Virus record (IMG/VR): IMGVR_UViG_3300018481_000076
Coordinates: 1-23,246 of that record
From: a virus
Length of the DNA stretch: 23,246 nucleotides
Reading direction: 5' to 3' (one strand)
Shown here: positions 2,891-22,856 of the stretch, piece by piece
Layout: the number at the start of each line of letters is the position of its first letter
How positions within the stretch are numbered: the first letter of the stretch is position 1
Position numbers and translations under genes: made by a program
Notes under the pieces: generated by a model
What the model was told of the DNA's origin: nothing
Seen by the model: only the letters and a program-made list of their open reading frames with translations
Database searches by the model: none

Positions 2891-3555
2891 CCATGGCAGC
2901 AACCTATGCCCTTGATGGCGCGCTCGATGTCGCGCAAGGCGGCAACGACACTGGTGCAGCCAGCACCGGCATTGGCGTTGCCTCGAATCAATCTGGACCC
3001 ACGGTGCAAGGCAACTTCACCAGCAACGCGGCAGACCTGCTGGCGTGGCACATCGGTGGTGGCCCCATCGATCAGGTCGCACCCTCGTCCATGTCCACCA
3101 GCAACACGGGACAGGTGGTGAACCCGGCTGTCACGTTCGCTGCGGGCAGTGGCTACACCAACGGCACCTATGTCGTTCAGAGCAACGCGAGCGGCGGGCA
3201 GCCTGCTGGCGCAGCGTCGATTGAATTCGTCGTTGCCGGTGGCGCGATCGTTTCTGCGCGCGTGGTGCGTCCTGGCAGTGGCTTCACCTCTGCGCCCACG
3301 TTCACGGTGGCGAACGCTGTGAACAGCGCTGGTGCTGGTCCTGGCGCGGGCGTGGGCGGCACGCTCACTGTCGCAGTGGGCCTGCTGTCCCAGGTGTTCA
3401 TGCTCGGTGCTGCCTTCGGCGCGAACAAGAACACGCAGCGGCTGACCGCTGTGGGCGCTGTCGCAGTGAACGCCGCGGTGACGCCTTCGACGTACCTGAA
3501 CCGCAGTGGCCGCGCGATGGTCGCGGGCGATTCGACCTGGGCAGTGGAGCCGTGA
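2887..3555 (+). CDS. Putative phage decoration/structural protein, Gly/Ala/Ser-rich
   Basis: The 222-aa product is rich in Gly, Ala, Ser, Thr and Val with few charges, typical of beta-structured virion surface proteins. Two nearby segments, GSGYTNGTYVV (about residues 88-98) and GGAIVSARVVRPGSGFTSAP (about 118-137), resemble the short beta repeat found in many phage fibres and capsid-decorating proteins. Two in-frame ATG codons (2887 and 2893) share one AAGGA site; 2887 is kept because of its ATGA overlap with the preceding stop. It sits between capsid and connector genes. A head-decoration role is likely but not proven; a minor tail role is the alternative. Confidence 0.7.
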   Translation: MTMAATYALDGALDVAQGGNDTGAASTGIGVASNQSGPTVQGNFTSNAADLLAWHIGGGPIDQVAPSSMSTSNTGQVVNPAVTFAAGSGYTNGTYVVQSNASGGQPAGAASIEFVVAGGAIVSARVVRPGSGFTSAPTFTVANAVNSAGAGPGAGVGGTLTVAVGLLSQVFMLGAAFGANKNTQRLTAVGAVAVNAAVTPSTYLNRSGRAMVAGDSTWAVEP

Positions 3556-3890
3556 GTCTCGTTGCCGGTCAGGCTCTGTTCGATGCCGCTGGGCGCATTG
3601 ACATTGCCCAGGCTGGTGTTCTTGTCGCTGGCTCTTTCCCGCCCCGCACGACCGCGGGGCGCATCGCAGTGAGCATGACTGACCCCATCGAGTTCTACGC
3701 GGGCGGCATCCCCATCACGACGACTGGCCGCATTGCAACGATGCAGGGCCCGATGGCGGTGGCGACTTTCCAGCCTGGAGCAATCCCCGTGTCCGCATCG
3801 GGGCGCCTCTCAGTCAATTTCGCGCAGCCCATCGCAGGCTACGTGTCCGGTTTCCCTCGCACCGCAAGCGGGGCGTTTGCAGTCGTTTGA
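3552..3890 (+). CDS. Small repeat-containing virion protein
   Basis: The GTG start at 3552 overlaps the preceding TGA as GTGA. The 112-aa product is built from repeats of about 22-25 residues. Gly-Arg-Ile/Leu (AGRI, AGRI, TGRI, SGRL) recurs at residues 14, 36, 59 and 84, with a degenerate SGAF at 107. Each is usually preceded by Gly-x-Ile/Phe-Pro and Thr/Ser. The repeats probably form stacked beta hairpins. I recognise this pattern from small proteins encoded near phage capsid or tail genes. A decoration or tail-surface role is likely; the exact function is unknown. No membrane segment or signal peptide is convincing. Confidence 0.7.
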   Translation: MSLVAGQALFDAAGRIDIAQAGVLVAGSFPPRTTAGRIAVSMTDPIEFYAGGIPITTTGRIATMQGPMAVATFQPGAIPVSASGRLSVNFAQPIAGYVSGFPRTASGAFAVV

Positions 3891-3905
3891 AAGGCAACAC
3901 ACACC

Positions 3906-4490
3906 ATGGAAACTTTTGACGGTGACCACAACGTCTTTTCACGCCAGAACGCGGGCGACGATACCCTTTTCGTCGTCTTCTATTCGGGCGTGGTGAAGAA
4001 CGAGTTTCGCACCAACGAAGAAGGACGACCGATCTTCGATGATGTCGAGTGCGTGAAGGTCATTGTTCCTGGCGACAAGAACAGCGTGATTGACCGGCCT
4101 GCGAGCGCGCAGGACAAGCAGCGTTTCTCGAAGCAGTATGGCCTTTTCAAAGCTGGCCTGTCCGAAGAGGAACAGGTCACTGGCACGCGCCTGAGTGACT
4201 GGCCTTACATCACCCGCGCCCAGGCTGAAGAGCTTCGCTATCTCGGCATCCGCACCGTCGAGCAGCTTGCCAACGTGCGTGACGACATCGTCGGCCGCGT
4301 GCCTGGGCTGGTCGGCCTGAAGCAGCACGCTGGCGTGTGGCTCGCGAAGGCCACGAAGAGCGCTGAGGCTGCGCAGATCACCAAGCTGATTCAGGACCAG
4401 AAGAGCGAGCTTGATTCGCTGCGCGAGGCAGTGAAGGAACAGGCTTCCCGCATCGAGTCTCTGCTGAAGGAAAAGCAACATGCCAAGTGA
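3906..4490 (+). CDS. Conserved phage head-module protein with C-terminal coiled coil
   Basis: The 194-aa product has three visible parts. A beta-rich N-terminus holds a TLFVVFYSGVV strand. A middle segment has an IVPGDKNSVIDRPAS motif (about residues 53-67) and then WPYITRAQAEELRYLGIRTV followed by a helix-hairpin-like VGRVPGLVGLKQ. A C-terminal helix with regular heptads of Leu/Ile and charged residues (about 160-190) is a likely coiled coil. I associate this architecture with a widespread unnamed family encoded beside capsid genes. It may take part in head completion or packaging, or bind DNA through the hairpin-like part; these are inferences. The last 11 nt overlap the next gene. Confidence 0.7.
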   Translation: METFDGDHNVFSRQNAGDDTLFVVFYSGVVKNEFRTNEEGRPIFDDVECVKVIVPGDKNSVIDRPASAQDKQRFSKQYGLFKAGLSEEEQVTGTRLSDWPYITRAQAEELRYLGIRTVEQLANVRDDIVGRVPGLVGLKQHAGVWLAKATKSAEAAQITKLIQDQKSELDSLREAVKEQASRIESLLKEKQHAK

Positions 4491-4692
4491 CCGCATCACG
4501 CTGGCACTCGATGCCAAGCATCTGGATTACATCGCCAATGTCCTGGCGCGGCAGCCGTGGGCTGAAGCGAATCCGGTGCTGACCGACTTGCAGCAGCAGG
4601 TCGCTGCATTCAATCGCGCGCAGCTTGACGCCAACACCAGCGGGCCTGTGATGGCAGGCAACAGCCATGGCGAAGCACGCGACAGCCATTGA
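4480..4692 (+). CDS. Small hypothetical phage protein
   Basis: The ATG at 4480 follows GAAGGAA (4466-4472) by 7 nt and overlaps the end of the upstream gene. The 70-aa product begins with a beta-strand/helix segment resembling a short oligomerising motif (LALDAKHLDYIANVLARQPW) and has a hydrophilic Asn/Gly/His-rich tail. The 3' end overlaps the adaptor gene by 26 nt. The family is not recognised. The coupling by overlap on both sides argues that it is a real gene of the head-tail module. Confidence 0.65.
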   Translation: MPSDRITLALDAKHLDYIANVLARQPWAEANPVLTDLQQQVAAFNRAQLDANTSGPVMAGNSHGEARDSH

Positions 4693-5404
4693 GTGCGTGC
4701 AATCGGTGCAGGGGCAGCTTGGGTTGCCCGTGTCCGCTGCTGCGATCACTGCGCCCGCTGACGAGACGGCACAGCAGATGCTGCGCTTGCTCACGTGGGC
4801 AGGCCGCAGGCTGGTCAAGCCGACCAGCACGTATCGCTGGACCACGCTGACGAAGACGTGGACCCTGCTGACGAATGGGGTGGACACCATCTACCCGCTG
4901 CCCGTTGACTGGGATTCCTTCGAGGACCTGACCGGCTGGAATTTCACCAGCCGACTGCCGATGCTTGGGCCCGCGACTGACCCGCAGTGGGCGTGCCTGA
5001 AAGCGCGCAACCTGGGCAGCAGCACCATCAGCGTCATCTACCGTGTGCGCGGCGGCAAGTTCGAGATTTACAACACCTTCGCTGCCCCGCAGGACCTGCG
5101 CATTGACTACTCTTCGCGCGGCTGGGTGCAGGACGCAGCAGACCCGTTGATCGTTCGCGATCACATCCTGAAGGATGACGATGTTCTGCTGTATGACAAC
5201 GAACTGATTACCGCGAAACTGAAGCTGGCGTTTCTCAATGCCAAGGGCTTCGACACCACTGCGGCGCAGGGCGAATACAACGAGATCGAAGAGGCTGCAA
5301 TCTGCGCCGACAGTGACGCGCCTGTCTTGCAGGTTTCGCGCAGCGACACTTACCCGCTGATTAGCACGCAGTTCAATGTGCCTGACACCGGGTACGGGGG
5401 CTGA
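4667..5404 (+). CDS. Head-to-tail adaptor (connector) protein
   Basis: The 245-aa product matches the layout of podovirus adaptor proteins that sit below the portal (P22 gp4 / T7 gp11 functional class). It has N-terminal helices for portal contact (TAQQMLRLLTWAGRRLVK), a beta-rich central part with WTTLTKTWTLLTNGVDTIYP and LPVDWDSF motifs (about residues 58-87), an IDYSSRGWVQ strand segment, and a C-terminal helix (ITAKLKLAFLNAKG, about 182-195). The PLPVDWDSFxDLTGWN stretch is the part I recognise best. It directly precedes the tail-hub gene, as expected. No strong Shine-Dalgarno is seen, so translation is probably coupled to the overlapping upstream gene. Confidence 0.8.
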   Translation: MAKHATAIECVQSVQGQLGLPVSAAAITAPADETAQQMLRLLTWAGRRLVKPTSTYRWTTLTKTWTLLTNGVDTIYPLPVDWDSFEDLTGWNFTSRLPMLGPATDPQWACLKARNLGSSTISVIYRVRGGKFEIYNTFAAPQDLRIDYSSRGWVQDAADPLIVRDHILKDDDVLLYDNELITAKLKLAFLNAKGFDTTAAQGEYNEIEEAAICADSDAPVLQVSRSDTYPLISTQFNVPDTGYGG

Positions 5405-5407
5405 CCA

Positions 5408-7063
5408 ATGCGGCCGACTCGCTTGCCGCAGCGGATGACTCAGCAGATCGTCACGCTGAAGCCGCCCACGCATGGCCTGAACACCACGGGCGATGTCGCA
5501 TTCATGGACCCGCAGGATGCCATCGAGTGCGACAACCTGATTGCTGCTGACCTGGGCCTCACGCTGCGCGGCGGATGGCGCGAGTACGCAACCAACATCG
5601 GTGGTGGCGGGAACATCGTCGTTCGCACGCTGATGGACTTCGATGCTGCGCCGACCACGTCACTGGCCCCGCCGCTGCTGACCAGCACGCTGTTCGCTGT
5701 CACTGACTTCGGCATCTATGACATCGAGGGTGGCGGCAACATGATTGCCGTTGCACCCGACATCGTCTTGTCCGGCACCAGCGGCGCGGGCTACATGGCG
5801 CACGTGCAATTCGTTGCTGCTGGTGGCTCGCACTTTCTGATTGCGTGCAGCGAGACTGACGGGGGCTACCTCTACAATGGTTTGGCGTGGATGAAGATGA
5901 CCAGCGTGGGCGGACCCGGCCCCGGCATCATCACTGGCGTCAACCCCGCTGACTTCGTCCACGTGTGCGTGTGGAAGAAGCGGCTGCTGTTCACCAAGCG
6001 CGGCACCGGGGAAATGTGGTTCTTGCCTGTTGGTCAGGTCGGCGGCGCGGCGCAGATGTTCGACTTCGGGCCCATCCTTCGCAGTGGCGGCATGCTGCTT
6101 GGGCTCGCGAACTGGACGCAGGACGCAGGCAGCGGCATTGACGATCGGCTGGTGGTCTTCGGCAGCGCTGGCGACATCGCGATTTACGAAGGCACTGACC
6201 CTGCGAGCGTGACTGCGTTTTTCGGCGTTGGCGTTTGGTATGTCGGACAGCCGCCGATCGGTCGGCGCTGCTGGACAGACACGGGCGGCAATGTCTACCT
6301 GCTGACGCAGTTCGGCGTGATCCCCATTGCGCAGTTGATGCAAGGTGGCCTGGACAACATCCTGACCAGCGGCACTGACCTGCTGGTGCAACTGCGCAAG
6401 ATCAATGACGCGCTGAACGTTGACTTTCAGACGTTGCTCAATACGCCTGGGTGGCAGTTGATTGCCTTCCCTGGCATTGCGCTGCTTCAGATTGCGCGCC
6501 CGCGGCAGAGCGTCACTGACTACGTGCAGTACACGTTTCAGCAGCACTCGCTGGCGTGGAATCGAATCCTCGATGTACCCGCGATGACGTTCGGGCGTCG
6601 CCTGAATCAGATTTACGGTGGCACTGACGATGCGCGCGTGCTGCGCGTCTTCACTGGCAACACCGATGCGATGCTGCTTGATGGCACCGGAGAAGTGGAG
6701 ATTCGCGGGCGCCTCACGCCTGCATTCAACTACTTCGACCAGCCTGCTGTTCGCAAGCGCGCGCTGATGTTCCGCCCGCAGTTCCTGGCGAAAGGCACGC
6801 CCGGCTGGTCGGTGCTGATGAATGTCAACTTCGAGCGCAACCCGATCGTTGGCACGCCTGTCGGCGGCAATACCGTGGGCTCGCTGTGGGATGCATCGTA
6901 CTGGGACGTTGACGTGTGGTCTGGTGGCCGCAGTGCGTTTGGTGAATGGCGCAGCGTTGTCGGCATGGGCTATTCGCTCTCGCCTTCGCTGTTCATTTCG
7001 TCGGTGACGCAGACCACGCTGGCGAGCCTCGAATACATGACCGATGCGTGTGGCCCGCTATGA
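5408..7063 (+). CDS. Tail hub / nozzle protein (DNA-stabilising type)
   Basis: The 551-aa product starts with a typical GLNTTGDVAFMDPQDAIECDN segment. This is followed by repeated short beta motifs with Gly-Gly turns, including FAVTDFGIYDI, DRLVVFGSAGDIAIYEG and VYLLTQFGVIPIAQLMQGG. These are the signature of beta-propeller nozzle proteins of short-tailed phages (functional class of P22 gp10 and T7 gp12), which close the channel and hold packaged DNA. The length is within the range of that class. The start follows a GGGGG stretch by about 7 nt, 3 nt after the adaptor stop, and the 3' end overlaps the next gene as ATGA. Confidence 0.82.
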   Translation: MRPTRLPQRMTQQIVTLKPPTHGLNTTGDVAFMDPQDAIECDNLIAADLGLTLRGGWREYATNIGGGGNIVVRTLMDFDAAPTTSLAPPLLTSTLFAVTDFGIYDIEGGGNMIAVAPDIVLSGTSGAGYMAHVQFVAAGGSHFLIACSETDGGYLYNGLAWMKMTSVGGPGPGIITGVNPADFVHVCVWKKRLLFTKRGTGEMWFLPVGQVGGAAQMFDFGPILRSGGMLLGLANWTQDAGSGIDDRLVVFGSAGDIAIYEGTDPASVTAFFGVGVWYVGQPPIGRRCWTDTGGNVYLLTQFGVIPIAQLMQGGLDNILTSGTDLLVQLRKINDALNVDFQTLLNTPGWQLIAFPGIALLQIARPRQSVTDYVQYTFQQHSLAWNRILDVPAMTFGRRLNQIYGGTDDARVLRVFTGNTDAMLLDGTGEVEIRGRLTPAFNYFDQPAVRKRALMFRPQFLAKGTPGWSVLMNVNFERNPIVGTPVGGNTVGSLWDASYWDVDVWSGGRSAFGEWRSVVGMGYSLSPSLFISSVTQTTLASLEYMTDACGPL

Positions 7064-8176: not shown

Positions 8177-9427
8177 ATGAGCAGCAGCGCACCCGAAGCA
8201 CCCGACTATGCGGCTGCGGCTGAGAAGACCGCAGCGAGCGACAAAGAGACGCTGACGCAGCAGACCTGGGCGAACCGCGCGACGCAAAACAACCCATGGG
8301 GACAGGTGTCCTGGCAGAACGAAGCTGCCGTTGATCCTGCGACCGGCCAGAAGGTCACGCAGTGGACGCAGAACACCACGCTGGACCCGCGTTTGCAGCA
8401 GGCGCTGGATTCGCAGATCGGCATCCAGCAGCAGCGCAGCGACCTTGCCAGCGGGTTGATGGACAGAGTACAGAACGAGTACAGCGCGCCCATGGATTGG
8501 GGGCAGCTTCAGAACTACGGGCAGGCACCCAACGCGCAGACCGCGCCCAAACTTCAGACCGGCCTTGACTACTCCGGTGCGCAGGGTGTGCAGGGTGCCG
8601 ACCAGAACCGGCAGAGCGCAGAGGACGCGATCTACAAGAGCGCGACCAGTCGCCTGGACCCGCGCTTTGCGCAGCAGGAAAAGGACTTGCAGACGCGACT
8701 GGCGAATCAGGACATCTCGCAGAACAGCGACGCCTATCGCGACGCGATGCGGCAGTTCAACGAATCGAAGACCGATGCGTACAACCAAGCGCAGCTTTCA
8801 GCGATCACTGGCGCTGGTGCAGAGGCGCAGCGCAACCAAGCGATGGACATGGGGTTGCGTCAACAGCAGGTTGGAGAAACGAACACGCAGGGTCAGTTCG
8901 GCAATCAAGCGCGCAGTCAGATGTTCGGCTTTGGGAACACTGTCTACAACCAGGGCATGCAGAACGCGAACTACAACAACGCGCTTCGTGGGCAGCAGCT
9001 TCAGGAACAGATTCAGAAACGTGGCTTCAGCTTGAACGAGATTCAGGCGCTGCTGAACGGGCAGCAGGTTTCGATGCCGCAGTTCGGCTCATACGGGCAG
9101 GCAGGCAAGGCGCAGGCCACTGACTACAGCGGCGCAGCGGGCTCGCAATATGACGCCTCGATGGACGCATACAACGCGAAGCAGGCAGGCATCAGCAACA
9201 TGGTCGGCGGCGCGACTTCGGCCGCAATGATGTTCAGCGATCGGCGCGTGAAGGCCGACATCGAGCGCATCGGCACGCACCCGCGTGGCTTCGGCATCTA
9301 CCGCTATCGCTACATCGGCGAGCGCATGCCGCGCGTTGGTGTGATCGCGCAAGACGTGCGCCGCTTTGCGCCTGAGCTTGTGGGCTCTGTGCGTGGCGTG
9401 CTTCAGGTGAATTACGCAGCACTGTGA
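8177..9427 (+). CDS. Internal virion protein with a C-terminal S74-like intramolecular chaperone domain
   Basis: The 416-aa product is Gln/Asn/Ala-rich and helical over residues 1-340, with a Gly/Ala-rich hydrophobic patch (NMVGGATSAAMMF) near 340-353. Residues 354-416 match the peptidase S74 / intramolecular chaperone domain: SDRRVK at 354-359, the GIYRYRYIGE strand, GVIAQDVRRFAPE, and VNYAAL at the end. In tail spikes and endosialidases this domain trimerises the fibre and then cleaves itself just before the Ser of the SDRRVK-type motif, predicted here before Ser354. The host protein is not a recognisable fibre; it may be an ejected or tail-tip protein. GAAGGGG lies 6 nt before the ATG. Confidence 0.72.
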   Translation: MSSSAPEAPDYAAAAEKTAASDKETLTQQTWANRATQNNPWGQVSWQNEAAVDPATGQKVTQWTQNTTLDPRLQQALDSQIGIQQQRSDLASGLMDRVQNEYSAPMDWGQLQNYGQAPNAQTAPKLQTGLDYSGAQGVQGADQNRQSAEDAIYKSATSRLDPRFAQQEKDLQTRLANQDISQNSDAYRDAMRQFNESKTDAYNQAQLSAITGAGAEAQRNQAMDMGLRQQQVGETNTQGQFGNQARSQMFGFGNTVYNQGMQNANYNNALRGQQLQEQIQKRGFSLNEIQALLNGQQVSMPQFGSYGQAGKAQATDYSGAAGSQYDASMDAYNAKQAGISNMVGGATSAAMMFSDRRVKADIERIGTHPRGFGIYRYRYIGERMPRVGVIAQDVRRFAPELVGSVRGVLQVNYAAL

Positions 9428-9435
9428 GGTGAACC

Positions 9436-9921
9436 ATGGACCCGAACCAATACGCGCTGATGCAAGGCGCACCGCAGCAGCCTGGAATGCAGATGCCTGG
9501 GCAACCCCCTGGCATGCCGCCCGGTGGCGTCATGGGGCCCGGTGCGCCGATGCCTGTGCCGGGGCAGCCGCAGCAGCCGCCACTGGACCCCGCAATGATT
9601 CAGGCCATGCTTGGGTTGCAGGGTGCGAAGACTGCGCAGGCAGGCGTCGCGCGCCAGCGTGGCCTCGCTGACCAGCTTCGCGCTGATGCGCGCAGCCAGT
9701 CGCAAGGTCGGCAGGCAGGTCGCGTGTACCAGGGTCCTGGCGTGCTGAACGCCATCGCTGGCATTGCTGGTGGCCTGAAGAGCAAGCGCATGGGCGAAGA
9801 CGCTGACCTGAAGGAACAGAACATTGGCGCGCAGCGCGGCAGCGCGTTGCAGGACTACTTCAATTCCATCACTGGTCAGAAACGTCCTGCGCTTCCGCAC
9901 ATGGGTGATGAAGGGGAGTGA
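9436..9921 (+). CDS. Small Pro/Gln/Met-rich internal virion protein
   Basis: The 161-aa product has a disordered N-terminal third (residues 1-48) of Pro, Gly, Gln and Met, like the protein at 7510-8175. It is followed by helices: an Arg/Gln-rich amphipathic helix (RQRGLADQLRADARSQSQGR, about 73-92) and a Gly/Ala-rich hydrophobic helix (GVLNAIAGIAGGLKSKRM, about 101-118). The second resembles membrane-active helices of phage ejection proteins. GAGG at 9426-9429 precedes the ATG by 6 nt. I assign it to the ejectosome-like block by position and composition only. Confidence 0.65.
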   Translation: MDPNQYALMQGAPQQPGMQMPGQPPGMPPGGVMGPGAPMPVPGQPQQPPLDPAMIQAMLGLQGAKTAQAGVARQRGLADQLRADARSQSQGRQAGRVYQGPGVLNAIAGIAGGLKSKRMGEDADLKEQNIGAQRGSALQDYFNSITGQKRPALPHMGDEGE

Positions 9922-15297: not shown

Positions 15298-15597
15298 TCA
15301 CTTGCTCTTCGGCTGTAGCAGCTTGATGCCGCTAGGGTGTAGCCCTGTCTTCAGGAGGAACAGTTCCCACTTGGCAACATCGATCTTGCGCGCCCCTCGT
15401 TCGTACTCAGACCATCGTTGAAAGGTGGAGAGGTGGACGTACTCAGCAGCTTGCGCCTGGGTGAGCCCTGCTGCTAGGCGAGCATGAACGATCATGTCTA
15501 ACGTGGGCTCTTGCACTCTCAGTTTCATTGCCGTTCCGACTGCTTTGCGTGAGACATCATGCTGCATCTGAGACACCATGCTACCCCCACGTATCAC
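15298..15597 (-). CDS. XRE-type helix-turn-helix DNA-binding protein
   Basis: Residues about 33-72 form a Cro/CI-type helix-turn-helix: LDMIVHARLAAGLTQAQAAE, then VHLSTFQRWSEYERGARKID, with the GLTQAQAAEY turn typical of the family. The C-terminal segment AKWELFLLKTGLHP is a pattern I have seen in phage-associated small regulators. It is 99 aa from the GTG at 15597, which overlaps the upstream stop as GTGA; the ATG at 15579, behind a GGGGG stretch, is a credible alternative start (93 aa). It is the last gene of the leftward operon, so it could feed back on the control region at 17454-17556. That link is inferred. Confidence 0.75.
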   Translation of the reverse strand: MIRGGSMVSQMQHDVSRKAVGTAMKLRVQEPTLDMIVHARLAAGLTQAQAAEYVHLSTFQRWSEYERGARKIDVAKWELFLLKTGLHPSGIKLLQPKSK

Positions 15598-17430: not shown

Positions 17431-17453
17431 TTGGAATCTCCTAGGGGTGGTTA

Positions 17454-17468
17454 ACTGGCAACGCCAGT
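17454..17468. promoter_or_regulatory. Palindrome A, candidate operator
   Basis: ACTGGC-AAC-GCCAGT, two perfect 6-bp arms with a 3-bp spacer. It covers the predicted start point and -10 edge of the leftward promoter. It shares a GCAAnGC core and the same length with palindrome B, centred 16 bp away. Confidence 0.6.
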
Positions 17469-17471
17469 ATA
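17466..17471 (-). promoter_or_regulatory. -10 element of the leftward operon promoter
   Basis: TATACT on the minus strand, one base off consensus, would start transcription near 17459 and give a leader of about 29 nt before the ATG at 17430. No good -35 lies 16-18 bp upstream, so the promoter may be weak or activated. Palindromes A and B flank and overlap it. Confidence 0.5.
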
Positions 17472-17484
17472 ACGCAAAGCGTTA
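17470..17484. promoter_or_regulatory. Palindrome B, candidate operator
   Basis: TAACGC-AAA-GCGTTA, two perfect 6-bp arms with a 3-bp spacer, in the -10/-35 spacer of the leftward promoter. Binding here would block RNA polymerase. The protein is not identified; the XRE-type protein at 15298-15597 is one candidate. Confidence 0.62.
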
Positions 17485-17504
17485 GCCCCCTGGGGCTCCC
17501 CAGG
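17484..17504. repeat. Two overlapping GC-rich palindromes
   Basis: AGCCCC-CT-GGGGCT (17484-17497) and CCTGGGG-CT-CCCCAGG (17489-17504) share the same central GGGG, so only one can form at a time. They could be a further operator or an RNA hairpin insulating the two divergent promoters. No T-run follows on either strand. Confidence 0.45.
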
Positions 17505-17537
17505 TGATGCAAACCCGTTCAGAGCGTGAGGGAATGC

Positions 17538-17543
17538 TATTCT
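17538..17543 (+). promoter_or_regulatory. -10 element of the rightward operon promoter
   Basis: TATTCT is followed by a predicted start near 17550 and an ATG at 17574. The -35 region (about 17515-17520) is a poor match to consensus. Confidence 0.4.
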
Positions 17544-17556
17544 GTGCGATACGCAC
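17544..17556. promoter_or_regulatory. Palindrome C, candidate operator at the rightward start point
   Basis: GTGCG-ATA-CGCAC, perfect 5-bp arms with a 3-bp spacer, immediately after the TATTCT -10 and over the expected start point. It has the same layout as palindromes A and B, though the arm sequence differs. Confidence 0.5.
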
Positions 17557-17573: not shown

Positions 17574-17786
17574 ATGCTGCATCGGCGTGACCTGAAGCTG
17601 GCCCATGGGGGCCTGTATCGCTGCTGCGTCGAGTCTGCGCGGCAGTGGCTCGAAGAGGACCCGAAGGCCACGGTGCGCGAGGGTGACATGGTCCGGTGCA
17701 AGTGGTGCAGTGGCGAGACTGGTCCGCAGATGATCGTGCGTGGTGATGTGATTCAGTGGAACAACCCCAGTGACAAGCATGGGTAA
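17574..17786 (+). CDS. Small Cys-containing hypothetical protein
   Basis: The ATG at 17574 follows AGGGAG (17563-17568) by 5 nt; earlier starts in the frame lie in the promoter. The 70-aa product has a basic N-terminus (LHRRDLKLAHGGLYRCCVES), a helix with QWLEED, then VRCKWCSGE, so a Cys-Cys pair near residue 18 and a CKWC pair near 58 could hold one zinc ion. A short beta segment (MIVRGDVIQW) follows. As the first gene of the rightward operon it may be an early regulator. No family is recognised. Confidence 0.65.
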   Translation: MLHRRDLKLAHGGLYRCCVESARQWLEEDPKATVREGDMVRCKWCSGETGPQMIVRGDVIQWNNPSDKHG

Positions 17787-18393
17787 CACCACGCCCGCGC
17801 TGTTGCAGTTGATCGCGAAGGCGAACCCTGCGCAGCGTGAGTACCTGCAAGACATGCGTGACCACTACCTTGCCCAGTTCAGGGCAAGCAACAGCATGCT
17901 GTTCGATCGCAAGGGAGTCGCTGCGGGCACGCATGACGCGATGGACAACTGCATTGACGTGATGAAGCGCACCGACAAGAATGCCAAGCGCATCGCTTGC
18001 CGCAAGGGCTGCGCGCACTGCTGTCACATCCCCGTGGACATCACGCGAGACGAAGCGCTGCTGCTGAAGGCCGCTGCTGCTGATGCGGGCATCGCGATCG
18101 ATCGCGACCTGCTGCGCAGGCAGGCCGAAGGCGAATGGAAGAGCAAGCCACTTGAAGAGCGGCGCTGTGTGTTCCTGACTGCTGAGAACGCTTGCGGGGT
18201 GCATGATCATCGCCCGAACTCCTGCCGCAAGTATCACGTGCTCGATGACCCGAAGCAGTGCGACACCGTCAAGTTCTACGGGCGCGATGTGGCGATGCTG
18301 GTGAGCATCGAAGGCGAGTGCTTGCAGGCTGCTGCGTTCACTGCCTTCCGTTCTGGTTCGATGGCTTCAATGCTGCTGGAGGTGACTGAATGA
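17779..18393 (+). CDS. YkgJ-type cysteine-cluster protein
   Basis: Of 204 aa, residues 74-82 form the cluster CxxxCxxCC (Cys74, 78, 81, 82, in ACRKGCAHCC). Residues 130-150 form the second half, CVFL-x6-C-x9-CR, with HDHRPNSCRKY; Cys130, 139 and 149 are visible. This is the signature of the YkgJ/Fe-S or zinc cluster family, whose biochemical role is not established; the cluster probably binds iron or zinc. The N-terminal 70 residues are a helical extension. The ATG at 17779 overlaps the upstream gene; a GTG at 17770 is possible but lies in a worse context. Two further Cys (161, 181) lie downstream. Confidence 0.8.
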   Translation: MGNTTPALLQLIAKANPAQREYLQDMRDHYLAQFRASNSMLFDRKGVAAGTHDAMDNCIDVMKRTDKNAKRIACRKGCAHCCHIPVDITRDEALLLKAAAADAGIAIDRDLLRRQAEGEWKSKPLEERRCVFLTAENACGVHDHRPNSCRKYHVLDDPKQCDTVKFYGRDVAMLVSIEGECLQAAAFTAFRSGSMASMLLEVTE

Positions 18394-19085
18394 GCGAGCT
18401 TGACGAAGACAAGAACATCACCCTTGACGATGGTGAAGCCGCGATCGTGTTCCGCAACGATGGGCGCGTGGACAAGCACTACTTTCAGGGCAGCAGTTCG
18501 GACAAGATCAGCGACTCTTCACCGCTGTTCGCTTCGCTGCTGGTGGCGAAGTTGTTCGATGCGAGCGACGATGAATCGCGCAAGCTGCTGCTGACGCTGC
18601 GTCGCGCTGTCATCAGGGAACTGCCGAAGCCTGCGCTTGTGCCGCTGGCCGATGGCGCCAAGGGCACGTGTGGGCGCTGCTACAGCGAGGCGGATGCCCT
18701 CTATGAAAGCAACTGCGACGATGACCCGCAGGCGCCGGAGAACGGCAACCAGGGCATGTATCACTGCACCGACTGCGGTGCGATGGTCCTGGGCGGCATG
18801 CCGCATCCGCCGCTGTGCTTGCTCTGCACTGAGCGCAGACACCCGCAGTACGACCTGGGCGAGAAGCCGCCCTATCGCGAGCCTGGAAGCCCGCTGAAGG
18901 TCATCTATGCCCCCGGCAGCTTCGACTGGTTCGAGGGCACGCCCGAAGAGCTTGCGGAACTGAAGGCCGACATCGAAGAGAAGTTCTCGAAGGGGCTGCC
19001 GAAGGACGCGAAGGCGATGACCGACAAGGACATGGAAGAGCTTGCGAAGGAACTGAAGGCACGCGGAAAGAACACGCGCCAATGA
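18390..19085 (+). CDS. Hypothetical protein with zinc-ribbon-like CxxC pairs
   Basis: A very strong GGAGGTGA (18378-18385) lies 4 nt before the ATG, which overlaps the upstream stop as ATGA. The 231-aa product has an acidic N-terminus, a helix about 46-80, then CGRC (Cys94/97), a lone Cys109, CTDC (126/129) and CLLC (143/146). These could bind one or two zinc ions as ribbons. The C-terminal 50 residues are charged helix (TPEELAELKADIEEKFSKGL, then DMEELAKELKARGK), probably a coiled coil. The family is not recognised. Metal-binding proteins dominate this operon, and this one could contact nucleic acid or a host protein. Confidence 0.7.
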   Translation: MSELDEDKNITLDDGEAAIVFRNDGRVDKHYFQGSSSDKISDSSPLFASLLVAKLFDASDDESRKLLLTLRRAVIRELPKPALVPLADGAKGTCGRCYSEADALYESNCDDDPQAPENGNQGMYHCTDCGAMVLGGMPHPPLCLLCTERRHPQYDLGEKPPYREPGSPLKVIYAPGSFDWFEGTPEELAELKADIEEKFSKGLPKDAKAMTDKDMEELAKELKARGKNTRQ

Positions 19086-19354
19086 ACCCGATGAACAAGC
19101 TGCCCGCTGACCCTGAATGGATCAAGCTGGTTGACGAGATTGCCCAGGACGCTGCGAAGCGCTTGGGCTGCCTTGTCGTCATGGTGGCGCTGCAAGAGCC
19201 TCACAAGGGTGGCAAGGCGTTGATCGCATGCGAGGGTGTGCCTGACACTGGCCCGCTGCACGAAATGTCCAAGGACCCGCCCGGCTTGATCGCCTACGCT
19301 GCCTACATGGCGCACCTGAGCGACCAGCATGACCGCAAGGGCACGAAGCAGTGA
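19082..19354 (+). CDS. Hypothetical protein
   Basis: The 90-aa product, coupled by ATGA to the gene before and GTGA to the gene after, is a mixed alpha/beta protein. It has a helix (DPEWIKLVDEIAQDAAKRLG), a hydrophobic strand (CLVVMVALQEP), a GKALIACEGVP segment, and a C-terminal helix with AYAAYMAHLSDQHD. The pattern of helix, strand and conserved Cys could be a small ligand-binding domain, but no motif identifies it. GGAAAG upstream is a weak site. Confidence 0.65.
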   Translation: MNPMNKLPADPEWIKLVDEIAQDAAKRLGCLVVMVALQEPHKGGKALIACEGVPDTGPLHEMSKDPPGLIAYAAYMAHLSDQHDRKGTKQ

Positions 19355-19578
19355 CGCACTACGGCATCGGGCTGCGCCTGCATTTCATTGACGTGATGCT
19401 CCAGCACTACGGCACCTTGAACCGGGTTGCGTTGATGGACTACTTCGGAATCTCGACACCACAGGCAAGCAATGACATCAAGGTCTATCTCGGGCGCTGC
19501 CCTGGGAACATGGTCTATGACAAGAGCCTGAAGACCTACACCGTGTGCAGCACGTTCAAGGCGGGGCAGTGGCGATGA
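19351..19578 (+). CDS. Stand-alone winged-helix protein like the N-terminus of CapW/BrxR regulators
   Basis: The GTG at 19351 overlaps the upstream TGA (GTGA). The 75-aa product reads as a complete winged helix: helix 1 (LRLHFIDVMLQHYG), helix 2 (NRVALMDYFGI), recognition helix (STPQASNDIKVYLGR), then a wing (CPGNMVYDKSLKTYTV). The pattern QAS-x-D-I-x-x-Y followed by PGN-x-x-YDKS-x-K-x-Y is what I know from the DNA-binding domain of CapW/BrxR-type regulators, which control CBASS and BREX defence islands. There the domain is followed by WYL and WCX domains, and both are absent here. Whether it binds their operators, or is only an early phage regulator, is unknown. Confidence 0.72.
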   Translation: MTHYGIGLRLHFIDVMLQHYGTLNRVALMDYFGISTPQASNDIKVYLGRCPGNMVYDKSLKTYTVCSTFKAGQWR

Positions 19579-19931
19579 ACTGGTTCGGCAAGCCCTATGG
19601 GGCACCCTACGAAGCCGACTGCGCGCACGTAGCGACTCCGGTGGGGGTGGCATGCGGCTGGTGCGACGAAGCGATTGCAGCGGGCGACGATGGGCTGGTG
19701 ATCCCGCACCTAGGCACTGACAGGCTGGTCAGCGAAAGGCCATGGCACTACGCCTGCCAGCTTCGCAGCGTGGTCGGCGGGGTGCGCCACCAGCTTCGGC
19801 AGTGTTCCTGCTGCGGCCTGGGCGCAGGGCTGCCCCCTGACCCCGAGGGCTTGACCCGCAGGCAGGCTGCCGATGCGGCTGCGTCGCTGTGGGCACTGAA
19901 CATCCGCAAGGGTGACCTGTGGTCAAGGTGA
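19575..19931 (+). CDS. Cys/His-rich phage protein, probable zinc binding
   Basis: The ATG at 19575 overlaps the upstream stop as ATGA; the earlier in-frame ATG (19545) lies inside the preceding gene and is not used. Of 118 aa, the N-terminal MNWFGKPYGAPY is a motif I have seen in actinobacterial and proteobacterial phage proteins. CGWC (Cys27/30), then PWHYAC (His58, Cys61) and CSCC (77/79/80), with Cys16, give a plausible zinc-binding set like a LIM or PARP-type finger. The C-terminus is an Arg/Ala-rich helix (TRRQAADAAASLWAL). Function unknown. Confidence 0.7.
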   Translation: MNWFGKPYGAPYEADCAHVATPVGVACGWCDEAIAAGDDGLVIPHLGTDRLVSERPWHYACQLRSVVGGVRHQLRQCSCCGLGAGLPPDPEGLTRRQAADAAASLWALNIRKGDLWSR

Positions 19932-20281
19932 CCGTTGACCTTGATGCCGACATCGCGCGCATGCGCTGGCATCTGATGGAGGTGATGACCTGCCTGCACA
20001 CGATGCGCAAGCGGCTGTGGATCAATCGCGCGCTGGCGCTGATGAACGTCGCTGCGTGCGCCCAGGTGCTGGCGACCTGGGCAAGCATGGCGGACACCCT
20101 TGGGCATCCCGCTACGGGCGCGCTGGTGCTGCTGAACGTCTTCGCAGTGGCCTGCATCCTGTGGCGCAGCGAAGGGATGTGGCATCGAGCGCACACGGTG
20201 CGGCTGCATCTGCTGGAGGGCATCGCCAAGTACGAAGCGATCAGGGCTCGCACGCTGCTGGAGCAAGGTGGGGGCGAGTGA
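19919..20281 (+). CDS. Two-helix membrane protein
   Basis: The GTG at 19919 overlaps the previous gene by 13 nt. The 120-aa product has a soluble N-terminal helix (VDLDADIARMRWHLMEVMTC), then hydrophobic segments at about residues 38-60 and 66-84, with Arg/Lys at 30-32 (inside by the positive rule), and a long C-terminal helix (HRAHTVRLHLLEGIAKYEAI). The topology predicts both ends in the cytoplasm. It resembles small phage membrane proteins of unknown role; a holin is possible by size and helix number, but no endolysin is nearby, so I do not call it one. Confidence 0.65.
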   Translation: MVKVTVDLDADIARMRWHLMEVMTCLHTMRKRLWINRALALMNVAACAQVLATWASMADTLGHPATGALVLLNVFAVACILWRSEGMWHRAHTVRLHLLEGIAKYEAIRARTLLEQGGGE

Positions 20282-20655
20282 TGGGAGAGTTCGCCATCCT
20301 GATCGGGCACGAAGTGAAGCCCTGCAACTCGATGACCTGGGCGCGCTGGAGAGAAGCGGCAACTGGCTTGAAGGGTGCGAACGGCGGCACCGGGTTTCAC
20401 GTGGCCGATGAAGTGGTGGCTGACGATGTGCGAATCAGCACTGTGTTCCTGGGGCTGGACCACGGGCATGGCGGCAAGCCGCTGTGGTTTGAAACGATGG
20501 TCTTCGGTGGCGTGCTGGACCAGCTTCAGGAGCGCTATGCGACCTGGGATCAAGCAGCAGCGGGGCACGCCTTCGTGAAGGCGACGGTGCTAGGCGAAGA
20601 GCGCAAAGCCGTTGACGAAGTGCGCGCCATGCTGCGGAAGATCGCAGTTTCGTGA
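20281..20655 (+). CDS. Conserved hypothetical phage protein, last gene of the rightward operon
   Basis: The ATG at 20281 overlaps the upstream TGA by one base (TGATG); the much longer open frame from 20017 has no ribosome site. The 124-aa product has VVADDVRISTVFLGLDHGHG then GKPLWFETMVFGG (about residues 41-74), a pattern I associate with a family of small phage proteins. It is followed by RYATWDQAAAGHAFVKATVLG. The His/Asp-rich turn and the downstream helix are the most conserved-looking parts. The function of that family is not known to me. It is followed by the 308-bp non-coding region, so it ends the operon. Confidence 0.7.
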   Translation: MGEFAILIGHEVKPCNSMTWARWREAATGLKGANGGTGFHVADEVVADDVRISTVFLGLDHGHGGKPLWFETMVFGGVLDQLQERYATWDQAAAGHAFVKATVLGEERKAVDEVRAMLRKIAVS

Positions 20656-20732
20656 ATTAACCAACAGATGCACCAAGAATCGTGCGACTGGTATGGCGTC
20701 AGGCTGAAAAGCCTTGCAGATCAAGCACTTGC

Positions 20733-20795
20733 GTACCCCTGCCGACACTAACGCCGATATCGACGGCAGCGTCAAAGAGTGATGCGGCGGGGTAC
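20733..20795. repeat. Long inverted repeat with one bulge
   Basis: GTACCCC-t-GCCG (20733-20744) is complementary to CGGCGGGGTAC (20785-20795) apart from the extra T. The 40-nt interior contains a second CTGCCG/CGGCAG pair that competes for the left arm. This could be integrase arm sites or a structured RNA. Confidence 0.45.
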
Positions 20796-20840
20796 AAAAT
20801 GCCATGGTACTTCTCGCCTAAGCCCTTGATATTCATAGGA

Positions 20841-20860
20841 AATCCATCCTTCTATGGATT
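20841..20860. other. Inverted repeat, candidate attachment-site core
   Basis: AATCCAT-CCTTCT-ATGGATT, perfect 7-bp arms with a 6-bp spacer, 104 bp before the integrase start. This fits tyrosine recombinase core sites, which are inverted repeats with 6-8-bp overlaps. The ATGGATTGG run (20854-20862) matches the codons for Met-Asp-Trp, as found in the conserved 5' part of dusA, a known target of P4-type integrases. The match is short and could be chance. Confidence 0.4.
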
Positions 20861-20963
20861 GGCGTGTCACTTAGCCTCACGCCGCAGACCCGACAGGTTT
20901 ACACCAAGCGTTGCACCATGCGACCATCGCGCCCGGTTCCATCAACACACACCGGAGAACGAC

Positions 20964-22439
20964 ATGACGAAGGCACTGGCACTGGGCAAAGGCGGCACCG
21001 CTACGGATGCTCTCATCACCAAGGCAGTGAAGAACGCCAAAGACGCGGGCAAAAAGGCTGTCGCCTTGACCGATGGCGAAGGGCTGTTTCTCGACTGCAA
21101 CCTGACCGAAGGCGCGGCGCGTCCGCTGGTGTGGCGCTTCCAGTACGGTAGTCCGACACGCCGCGATGCGAACGGCAAGCCGGTGCGCAACAAGCTGACC
21201 TTTGGCGAGTACCCAGGCAAGAGCCTCGCGCAAGCCCGCGAAGAGGCTGAGGCGGCGCGCACGCAGATCGCCCAGGGGGTTGACCCCGCCCAGGCGCGCG
21301 ACGCTGCCAAGCAGGCTGAGAAGGCTGCCCAGGTGCATGCTGCGATCGTCGCCCCGATCGTCGCCCGCGGCGCCAAGGTCGGCACCTTCCGCGCGATGGC
21401 TGCCGAATGGCACGCCCATAACGCGCCGAACTGGGCGAAGCACTACGCGCGCACCGTGGAGCTTTCGCTGGCGAATCACATCCTTCCGGTGGTCGGCGAC
21501 AAGCTGATGAACGACATCCATGCCATGGACTTCGTTGCGCTGCGTCGCGAGCATGAGCAAGAGGGCACCATTGAAGCGCTGGTTCACGCGCTGCGCTGGA
21601 CATCGGCAGTGTTCCGCTTCGCCATGGAAACCGGCCGCGTGAAGGCTGACCCCATCGTGATCCCGAAGGCGTTGCTTGCCATCAAGCGCGAACAGCGCGT
21701 GCATCGCCCCGCAGTCACTTCGCCTAGCAGCGTGCGTGCGCTGATGCAGGCCATCTACGCTCGCGATGAAAGCAGCATCACGCATGCGATGGTCCTGGCC
21801 GCGCTGACGATGCAGCGCATCGGCTCTGTCGTCGCGATGACCTGGGCGGACATCGACCTTGACGCGCAAGTGTGGGTGGTCCCCGCTGAGAAGATGAAGA
21901 TGCGCACCACGCTGAAGAAAAGCCGCAAGGCGCAGCTTGGTCAGCTTGACCACGTGGTGCCCCTCAGCACGCAAGCCTGCGCGCTCCTGCGCCGCATCAA
22001 GGCCATGCAATCGGCTGGTGCGCTGTCCCCCTCGCTGCGTCGCCTGAAGGCTTCGCCTTACGTGCTGCCGAACTACTTCGATGCGACCAAGCACATGGCT
22101 CGCACCAGCGCGACCGACTACATGCGCGATGTCATGGGCTATGCGGACACGCACTGCCTGCATGGCTTCCGCGCGATGGGGCGCACCGCTGGCGCCTACC
22201 AAGCTGGCGTCGCACCGCAACTGCTGGAGGCGCAACTGGCCCACAAGGGCAGCAAAGACGCGATGGGGCGCGACCAGACCAATGGCCTGCGCGAAGCCTA
22301 CGATCGCGCCAGCGAGGCGTATAGGGAGCCTGCGATGGTCAAGGCGCGCAGCGCTGGAGTGCAGCAGTACGCTGACTGGCTCGATGAGGTGTGCGGACCT
22401 GCCCCGTGGCAGGGCGGCGCGCTGAAGCTGGCTGCCTAA
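20964..22439 (+). CDS. int: P4-type tyrosine recombinase / phage integrase
   Basis: The ATG at 20964 follows GGAGA (20954-20958) by 5 nt. Of 491 aa, residues about 15-125 are the DUF4102-like arm-DNA-binding domain (ALTDGEGLFLDC, LTFGEYPGKSLAQAREEAE). Residues 140-235 are the core-binding helices. The rest is the catalytic domain, with Arg285 (LTMQRIGSV), Lys310/312 (PAEKMKM), His330 (DHVVPLS), His400 and Arg403 (LHGFRA), His427 (QLAHKG) and the nucleophile Tyr446 (AYDRA), so it should be active. It catalyses integration of the phage and, with an excisionase, excision. A short Lys/Arg/Gln insert at 314-328 is unusual. It is convergent with an AlpA-like gene and followed by a terminator inside that gene. 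Confidence 0.93.
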   Translation: MTKALALGKGGTATDALITKAVKNAKDAGKKAVALTDGEGLFLDCNLTEGAARPLVWRFQYGSPTRRDANGKPVRNKLTFGEYPGKSLAQAREEAEAARTQIAQGVDPAQARDAAKQAEKAAQVHAAIVAPIVARGAKVGTFRAMAAEWHAHNAPNWAKHYARTVELSLANHILPVVGDKLMNDIHAMDFVALRREHEQEGTIEALVHALRWTSAVFRFAMETGRVKADPIVIPKALLAIKREQRVHRPAVTSPSSVRALMQAIYARDESSITHAMVLAALTMQRIGSVVAMTWADIDLDAQVWVVPAEKMKMRTTLKKSRKAQLGQLDHVVPLSTQACALLRRIKAMQSAGALSPSLRRLKASPYVLPNYFDATKHMARTSATDYMRDVMGYADTHCLHGFRAMGRTAGAYQAGVAPQLLEAQLAHKGSKDAMGRDQTNGLREAYDRASEAYREPAMVKARSAGVQQYADWLDEVCGPAPWQGGALKLAA

Positions 22440-22445
22440 GCAGCG

Positions 22446-22766
22446 TCACTCACCACTGGGGGCCTTCGGGCCCCTTTTCTTTTCCAGCACGCGCGCAAGG
22501 TCATCGTTGCCGGTGGTGGTGCGCCTGTTGTCGCGCACCCAGGTGCGCACCACGCCAAGCACCCAAAAATTGATGCCTGCACCGCGCTTGGGAATCGGGC
22601 GCGGGACCTTGCCATTGCGCAAGGTGAGCAGATTGCGAATCGTGCGCTCACTCAGGCCGATCAGGTCACTGACTTCGCCAATGCGTACCAGTGCTTCGTC
22701 GGGAAGCTGACGGGTGTCAACGTGTCTGCGCGGTGCGGTGGTCCGCACGCGCTTTGCGGCTGCCAT
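22446..22766 (-). CDS. AlpA-like excisionase / transcriptional regulator
   Basis: The ATG at 22766 follows GAAGGG; the longer frame would need a TTG start. The 106-aa product has a basic N-terminus (AAAKRVRTTAPRRH) and a MerR/AlpA-type helix-turn-helix at about residues 24-50 (EALVRIGEVSDLIGLSERTI), followed by the wing (VPRPIPKRGAGINFWVLGVV) and a final helix with RTWVRDNRR. The FWVLGVVRTWV pattern after the wing is typical of AlpA-like proteins, many of which are excisionases or activators of the adjacent integrase. The C-terminal KKRGPKAPSGE is encoded by the integrase terminator hairpin. A role as the excisionase partner of the integrase is inferred from proximity. Confidence 0.82.
   Translation of the reverse strand: MAAAKRVRTTAPRRHVDTRQLPDEALVRIGEVSDLIGLSERTIRNLLTLRNGKVPRPIPKRGAGINFWVLGVVRTWVRDNRRTTTGNDDLARVLEKKRGPKAPSGE
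22459..22483 (+). terminator. Integrase terminator inside the AlpA-like gene
   Basis: GGGGCC (22459-22464), a TTCG tetraloop, GGCCCC (22469-22474) and TTTTCTTTT (22475-22483). It begins 19 nt after the integrase stop. The same bases encode the last residues of the convergent AlpA-like protein, so it is both coding and terminating. Confidence 0.85.
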
Positions 22767-22856
22767 AGGGTTGCCCTTCGCTATCTTGTTGTCGTTGCCA
22801 TTGCTTGCGCTAGGGCATCCCTCGGTGCCCTGCTTGGTCAATCGAAAGACTTGCTG

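Follow-up and report, generated by a model that had tools for sequence, protein, structure and literature searches.

Gene organization of the locus

The window, that is, the whole stretch of 23,246 nucleotides that was analysed (positions 1 to 23,246 of IMG/VR virus record IMGVR_UViG_3300018481_000076), is probably a fragment; its virion genes include those of a major head protein and a tail protein. Its capsid protein shares 69% identity with the capsid of Stenotrophomonas maltophilia phage BUCT555, and a Stenotrophomonas-like host is therefore plausible, though not established. The operon considered here extends from ~17574 to 20655 on the plus strand and consists of small genes, the majority without a family, followed by a tyrosine integrase. 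Its probable first ORF (17574–17786) is translated into 70 residues with a C-x2-C motif and has an RBS-like AGGGAG upstream, and another operon member (17770–18393) encodes a CxxCxxCC zinc/iron-chelating domain protein (Pfam PF03692, E = 2e-8). The region upstream of the operon (17452–17556) contains the small palindromes TAACGCAAAGCGTTA (17470–17484) and GTGCGATACGCAC (17544–17556), neither of which is assigned to the protein described below. The integrase ORF (20682–22439, with a likely ATG start at 20964) matches Pfam PF13356, PF22022 and PF00589 as well as phrog_1.

The gene under study, an ORF of 75 codons designated P0001, was confirmed at 19351–19578 of the plus strand with a GTG start and a TGA stop. 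It overlaps both of its neighbours by 4 bp, as in a translated polycistron: its start lies within the stop codon of the preceding gene (GTGA, 19351–19354), and the ATG of the next gene lies within its own stop codon (ATGA, 19575–19578). The preceding gene (19082–19354, 90 residues) has no family according to its translation and library searches, and neither has the following one (19575–19931, 118 residues), which contains C-x2-C motifs. No known defence family was found among the neighbours with Pfam and PHROGs; they are small phage genes. Elsewhere in the window, an excisionase/MerR-like gene (22446–22841, minus strand, phrog_66) and an Xre-type helix-turn-helix gene (15298–15597, minus strand) are present, so that the phage has further candidate regulators.

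Identity and predicted fold of the 75-residue protein

The switching-on of many bacterial immune systems is timed by CapW and BrxR repressors. Their winged helix grips half of a palindrome of ~20–25 bp, and their WYL/WCX part keeps the dimer joined and frees the DNA upon a damage signal (ssDNA). An earlier note on this DNA had recognized the helix and wing signature of these repressors in the 75-residue protein, and the motif turned out to be beyond chance. A phmmer search against the PDB returned CapW and BrxR-type chains only, the best being S. maltophilia CapW (7tb6, E = 4.3e-11) and Pseudomonas aeruginosa CapW (7tb5, 9.8e-11), followed by BrxR (7t8k, 1.8e-4), 9c5g (2.1e-4) and 7qfz (0.021), and a profile of the phage-family relatives reached the CapW/BrxR structures at 1.1e-22.

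An AlphaFold2 model built from 71 aligned sequences presents a confident winged helix (pLDDT 92.4, pTM 0.81) with helices at residues 3–20, 25–32 and 36–49 and strands at residues 54–57 and 62–65. In a Foldseek search with this model, the top fifteen hits were all CapW/BrxR chains (best E = 1e-6), whereas the next other fold had an E-value of only 0.015. The structural alignment suggested in the earlier note gave the same picture, with VIA-align Z-scores of 11.5–14.1 to CapW/BrxR against 8.6 for the best other fold. That note had named a better match to an unrelated winged-helix family such as DeoR as grounds for abandoning the assignment; neither Foldseek nor VIA-align found one, CapW/BrxR being well above the other folds. 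Matches to MarR, IclR, MntR and similar proteins were set aside as generic winged-helix similarity.

The ORF ends right after the wing, and both the WYL and the WCX domains are absent from it. Nor is there a WYL domain downstream, since the gene that follows is a different ORF of 118 residues in another frame. A frameshifted or broken full-length gene was ruled out, given that no WYL sequence lies downstream and that the relatives share the same end with real stop codons. Judged by sequence and by the predicted fold, the 75-residue protein is the winged-helix half of CapW/BrxR without WYL or WCX.

The winged helix of CapW, the CBASS-associated WYL repressor (PDB 7tb5, 7tb6 and 9c5g), spans nearly the whole length of the phage protein, with 40–43% identity to 7tb5/7tb6 and the same predicted fold. 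Different from CapW, the phage protein lacks the linker helix in addition to the WYL and WCX domains, and its gene is not located beside a defence operon. BrxR, the BREX repressor (PDB 7t8k, 7t8l and 7qfz), possesses the same winged helix (Z 12.7–14.1), but the identity is lower (26–32%), the WYL/WCX part is again missing from the phage protein, and the phage gene is not in a BREX locus.

Residues for DNA recognition

In S. maltophilia CapW, detectable DNA binding is eliminated by R32A and likewise by the triple mutation S42A/Q45A/S47A (PMC9122588). The four equivalent residues, R25, S35, Q38 and S40, are all kept in the 75-residue protein. The codon of R25, assigned by alignment to R32, lies at 19423–19425, and this arginine is conserved in 97–100% of the rows across both stand-alone and full-length proteins. 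The other three reside in the recognition helix (codons 35–49, 19453–19497), within the motif S35-T-P37-Q38-A39-S40-x-D42 that aligns with S42/Q45/S47 of CapW. The DNA contacts of Acinetobacter BrxR, namely R11, S37, Q40, K46, K64 and Y66 (PMC9122589), correspond to R9, S35, Q38, K44, K61 and Y63 of the window protein. Twelve positions (R9, R25, S35, P37, Q38, A39, S40, D42, Y46, Y56, K61 and Y63) are common to the stand-alone and full-length rows, and the shared DNA-contact positions include residues important in CapW and in BrxR (PMC9122588, PMC9122589). Three of the twelve, Y56, K61 and Y63, belong to the wing (codons 54–65, MVYDKSLKTYTV, 19510–19545), which is formed by the two strands of the model. 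The claim of a stand-alone protein without a WYL domain in a phage operon is thus borne out by the sequence and profile searches, the predicted fold and the DNA-contact residues.

Several other positions set the phage proteins apart. The base-reading R38 in the SRQQ motif of BrxR is replaced by Thr36 in the 75-residue protein. Position 16 is an arginine in 96% of the full-length rows but Leu/Met or Met/Thr in the phage rows, and positions 19–20, an aromatic residue followed by a mostly acidic one in the full-length proteins, are His/Gln-Tyr or Val/Ile-Tyr/Phe in the phage proteins; positions 16 and 19–20 probably face the parts missing from the phage form. Within the recognition helix, position 44 is an alanine in 59% of the full-length rows, in contrast to mostly Arg, Gln, Ser or Lys in the phage group of the window and a mixture in the other phage rows. 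The tail also differs between the stand-alone and full-length rows. The mean charge of the domain, calculated from rows that are not independent of each other, is +2.7 and +3.9 in the stand-alone proteins versus +1.2 in the full-length ones, with a value of +4 for the window protein.

Distribution in phages and bacteria

The phage proteins form a widespread family that holds only the DNA-binding half of CapW/BrxR and is missing from the main family libraries. It is absent from Pfam, PHROGs and NCBIfam, which is a gap in those libraries: the best NCBIfam match of any member has an E-value of 0.012, and the PADLOC WYL model weakly matches 3 of 26 members. No description of a stand-alone phage version was found in the openly accessible literature searched.

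Four scans of IMG/VR yielded 88 distinct loci with 90 genes, 87 of which are stand-alone and three full-length (L054, L061 and L066). All 87 stand-alone genes end in a stop codon, most of them at most 10 residues past the domain, and the relatives have intact frames with common boundaries and genuine stops. The carriers comprise prophages, a phage of the Mesyanzhinovviridae (Sonora) and phages or contigs of 180–315 kb. Among 50,697 phage records, the family was found in Stenotrophomonas phage Sonora (75 residues), Salmonella phage Arash (gp136, 109 residues) and Yersinia phage fHe-Yen9-02 (ORF 285, 110 residues). Sonora gp088 (QYW02189.1), annotated as a hypothetical protein only, is a stand-alone relative with 52% identity to the window protein and, like it, is encoded in a series of small phage genes that overlap each other. 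The Arash and fHe-Yen9-02 proteins are stand-alone winged helices of the CapW/BrxR type too, divergent and with a tail of ~40 residues of their own. The annotation of Arash gp136 (L003:2983–3312) as a 'WYL domain-containing protein' is misleading, as its 109 residues amount to the winged helix and a short tail. The remaining matches in the phage records are two phage-labelled contigs, one of which was read and encodes a full-length BrxR in a BREX locus. This contig, deposited as 'Acinetobacter phage MD-2021a' (L004, CAKLQH020000045.1), is probably host or plasmid DNA.

The picture is different in bacteria, for which ~965 genomes were surveyed. The family of Paraburkholderia nodosa (299 genomes) gave 35 matches, including two stand-alone ones and one of 98 residues; the family of Pseudoxanthomonas composti (297 genomes) gave 44 matches, none of them stand-alone and the shortest being 163 residues; and nearly all of the 56 matches in a class-wide sample (369 genomes) are ~300 residues long. 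Since the profiles were built mostly from stand-alone rows, this contrast in length between phages and bacteria is not caused by the query. A first scan of genome contigs with A2 gave no match. The best-listed matches on plasmids are mostly annotated as WYL proteins, and of four that were opened, one has CBASS genes next to it and another BREX-3 genes.

Two copies from Paraburkholderia genomes (L166 and L167), which belong to the five bacterial carriers named below, and a third locus, L168, are not in an obvious prophage. In the two Paraburkholderia genomes, the stand-alone gene adjoins a gene of 111–113 codons between Flp/Tad-pilus-like genes (L166:7997–8574 and L167:7599–8500), and the segment has the appearance of a small inserted element and not of a prophage.

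The neighbourhoods of the stand-alone genes vary among the relatives, and no conserved gene partner was found in them. Lar-like restriction-alleviation proteins match 3 of 93 neighbour proteins and were dropped as a functional clue, being too common in phages. One neighbour that deserves consideration is the integrase. The window protein resembles known small winged-helix excisionases in size and fold. The integrase ORF of the window begins 1.1 kb downstream of its gene, or 1.4 kb if the likely start is counted, and integrases are also found near some of the relatives. On these grounds, a role as excisionase or recombination directionality factor, with bending of the DNA at att sites, could be imagined. 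We consider this improbable: the window already has the excisionase-like gene at 22446–22841, the stretches read around Sonora gp088, Arash gp136 and fHe-Yen9-02 ORF 285 carry no annotated integrase, and integrases make up few of the 93 neighbour proteins, the pairing being confined to some members.

Relation to the host regulators

A careful tree was calculated from 55 domains, in which one branch with a support of 100/99 separates all 25 stand-alone rows from all 30 full-length rows; the split is present in every bootstrap tree examined. A quick tree of 134 rows shows the same split, needing one change where shuffles gave 41. Its resolution is poor, however, its search was short, and a test favoured another tree, in which the window row sits in a host clade. 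Given this weakness, the 55-domain tree is relied on. The phage proteins are a lineage of their own rather than near-duplicates of host regulators. A phage-type domain may have acquired WYL and WCX in the defence regulators, or else a single loss of both occurred in the phage family. The window row lies on the stand-alone side, but its own placement is only weakly resolved, as the approximately unbiased (AU) test permits it to be grouped alone with the full-length rows (p = 0.43) or with one host clade (p = 0.18).

The result of the AU test is what could be said for a non-functional remnant of a host CapW gene, degraded or truncated not long ago. However, dozens of relatives agree in their boundaries and contact residues and have intact frames, the separation holds at the family level, and the gene overlaps its operon neighbours precisely. 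The degraded gene is largely refuted at the family level and is hardly to be entertained for the window protein.

Operators and palindromes

CapW-type operators were sought with the pattern TATACG-N12-18-CGTATA. The full-length genes served as a control, which gave the expected result: sites of the form TATACGC-N-CGTATA lie directly upstream of them, e.g. in L038, L109, L108 and L123, and a CapW-type operator occurs upstream in ~12 of the 59 full-length loci. In contrast, none was found in the window or upstream of the stand-alone genes. When at most one mismatch was allowed, the stand-alone loci gave 4 pattern matches in 2 loci versus 5.25 expected. These were not counted, since those in L014 are iteron-like repeats in a replication-type phage gene and those in L168 lie beside an apparent IS21 istB remnant. 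The cluster of GTATAC repeats in L014 (7888–7946), within a gene resembling a phage replication initiator, is possibly an origin. Palindromes upstream of the stand-alone genes are near the shuffled level as well, with a score of at least 8 in 7 of 85 cases versus 5.5% after shuffling. A perfect inverted repeat of 12 bp with a 7-bp gap is located inside a stand-alone coding sequence of a 238-kb viral contig (L015:4986–5016).

Proposed role of the phage protein

We propose, with a probability of about 0.55, that the gene product is a small, ligand-blind and sequence-specific DNA-binding regulator of the phage, made of a single CapW/BrxR-type winged helix. Homology, fold, shared contact positions, basic charge, constant architecture and the 100/99 branch all argue for this reading. 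Three observations count against it: CapW and BrxR bind DNA as dimers, whereas the phage protein lacks the known dimer parts; no operator for it was identified in the window or in the relatives; and the varying neighbourhoods point to no regulated partner. We infer DNA binding, oligomeric state, repression and target as follows. Without the WYL part, the protein would be blind to ligand and most likely would occupy one or more sites constitutively, either singly or as a loosely held pair, and in this state may repress or otherwise regulate nearby transcription. Regulation of a phage promoter is possible for the 75-residue protein, and we favour the phage's own genes as targets over host defence operons, because the family is separate from the host regulators, because its carriers are phage types with very different neighbours, and because a full-length copy accompanies the stand-alone gene in G1025 alone out of five bacterial genomes where the latter is clear (G001, G224, G1025, G1049 and G969).

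The other possibility raised in the earlier note is that a CapW/BrxR half unresponsive to ssDNA occupies CBASS or BREX operators of the host, so that the defence operon stays repressed during infection. The kept DNA-contact residues are in line with it, as are the closest full-length relatives, some of which lie beside CBASS and BREX-3 genes, and the BUCT555-like capsid, S. maltophilia having a characterised CapW. CapW and BrxR repress until ssDNA is bound, whereupon CapW lets go of the DNA (PMC13373217, citing Blankenchip and Corbett 2024), which a form without the sensor could not do. Even without a CapW-type operator upstream of its own gene, the protein could bind in trans at host operators. 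Nevertheless, the idea found no support and was weakened: the stand-alone genes have no CapW-type operator, the proteins are a separate lineage rather than copies of host regulators, only one of the five stand-alone carriers has a full-length protein, and only ~10–20% of the genomes in the host groups surveyed gave a CapW/BrxR match at all. It is weakened further because some exposed positions of the recognition helix, such as position 44, differ. We therefore regard it as unlikely for the window protein, and as a shade more doubtful in the general form that phages of many lineages place the sensor-less domain on CBASS, BREX and similar immune operators and override their de-repression.

The stand-alone family either directs phage genes by means of this shared module or disturbs the control of host immunity, and both answers have a bearing on the origin of CapW and BrxR. 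The role is directly testable, because phage Sonora has a member of the family and a CapW together with its operator has been characterised from S. maltophilia.

How a regulator of phage genes could bind DNA without the dimer parts may be viewed in light of Escherichia fergusonii BrxR, for which repression from a single repeat is possible, though as a dimer (PMC9122601). The known dimer contacts of CapW and BrxR are mostly in the parts missing from the phage form (PMC9122588, PMC9122601), and a dimer of the phage protein would rest on other contacts or on cooperative binding to half-sites. The same location of the contacts makes it very improbable that the phage domain serves as a partner subunit, joining a host CapW/BrxR dimer or another winged-helix copy in mixed dimers with altered DNA binding, even though two loci carry pairs of stand-alone proteins, which could form mixed dimers: L024 has two different genes in tandem (5980–6198 and 6198–6428), and L025 has two copies (5959–6216 on the plus strand, and 9295–9627 in reverse-strand coordinates). 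Another prophage with a stand-alone gene, L006, also carries a reverse transcriptase (3468–4832, phrog_1423), whose N-terminus contains WNVNFNNGNVNNNHRNNNG, in a stretch resembling a diversity-generating retroelement.
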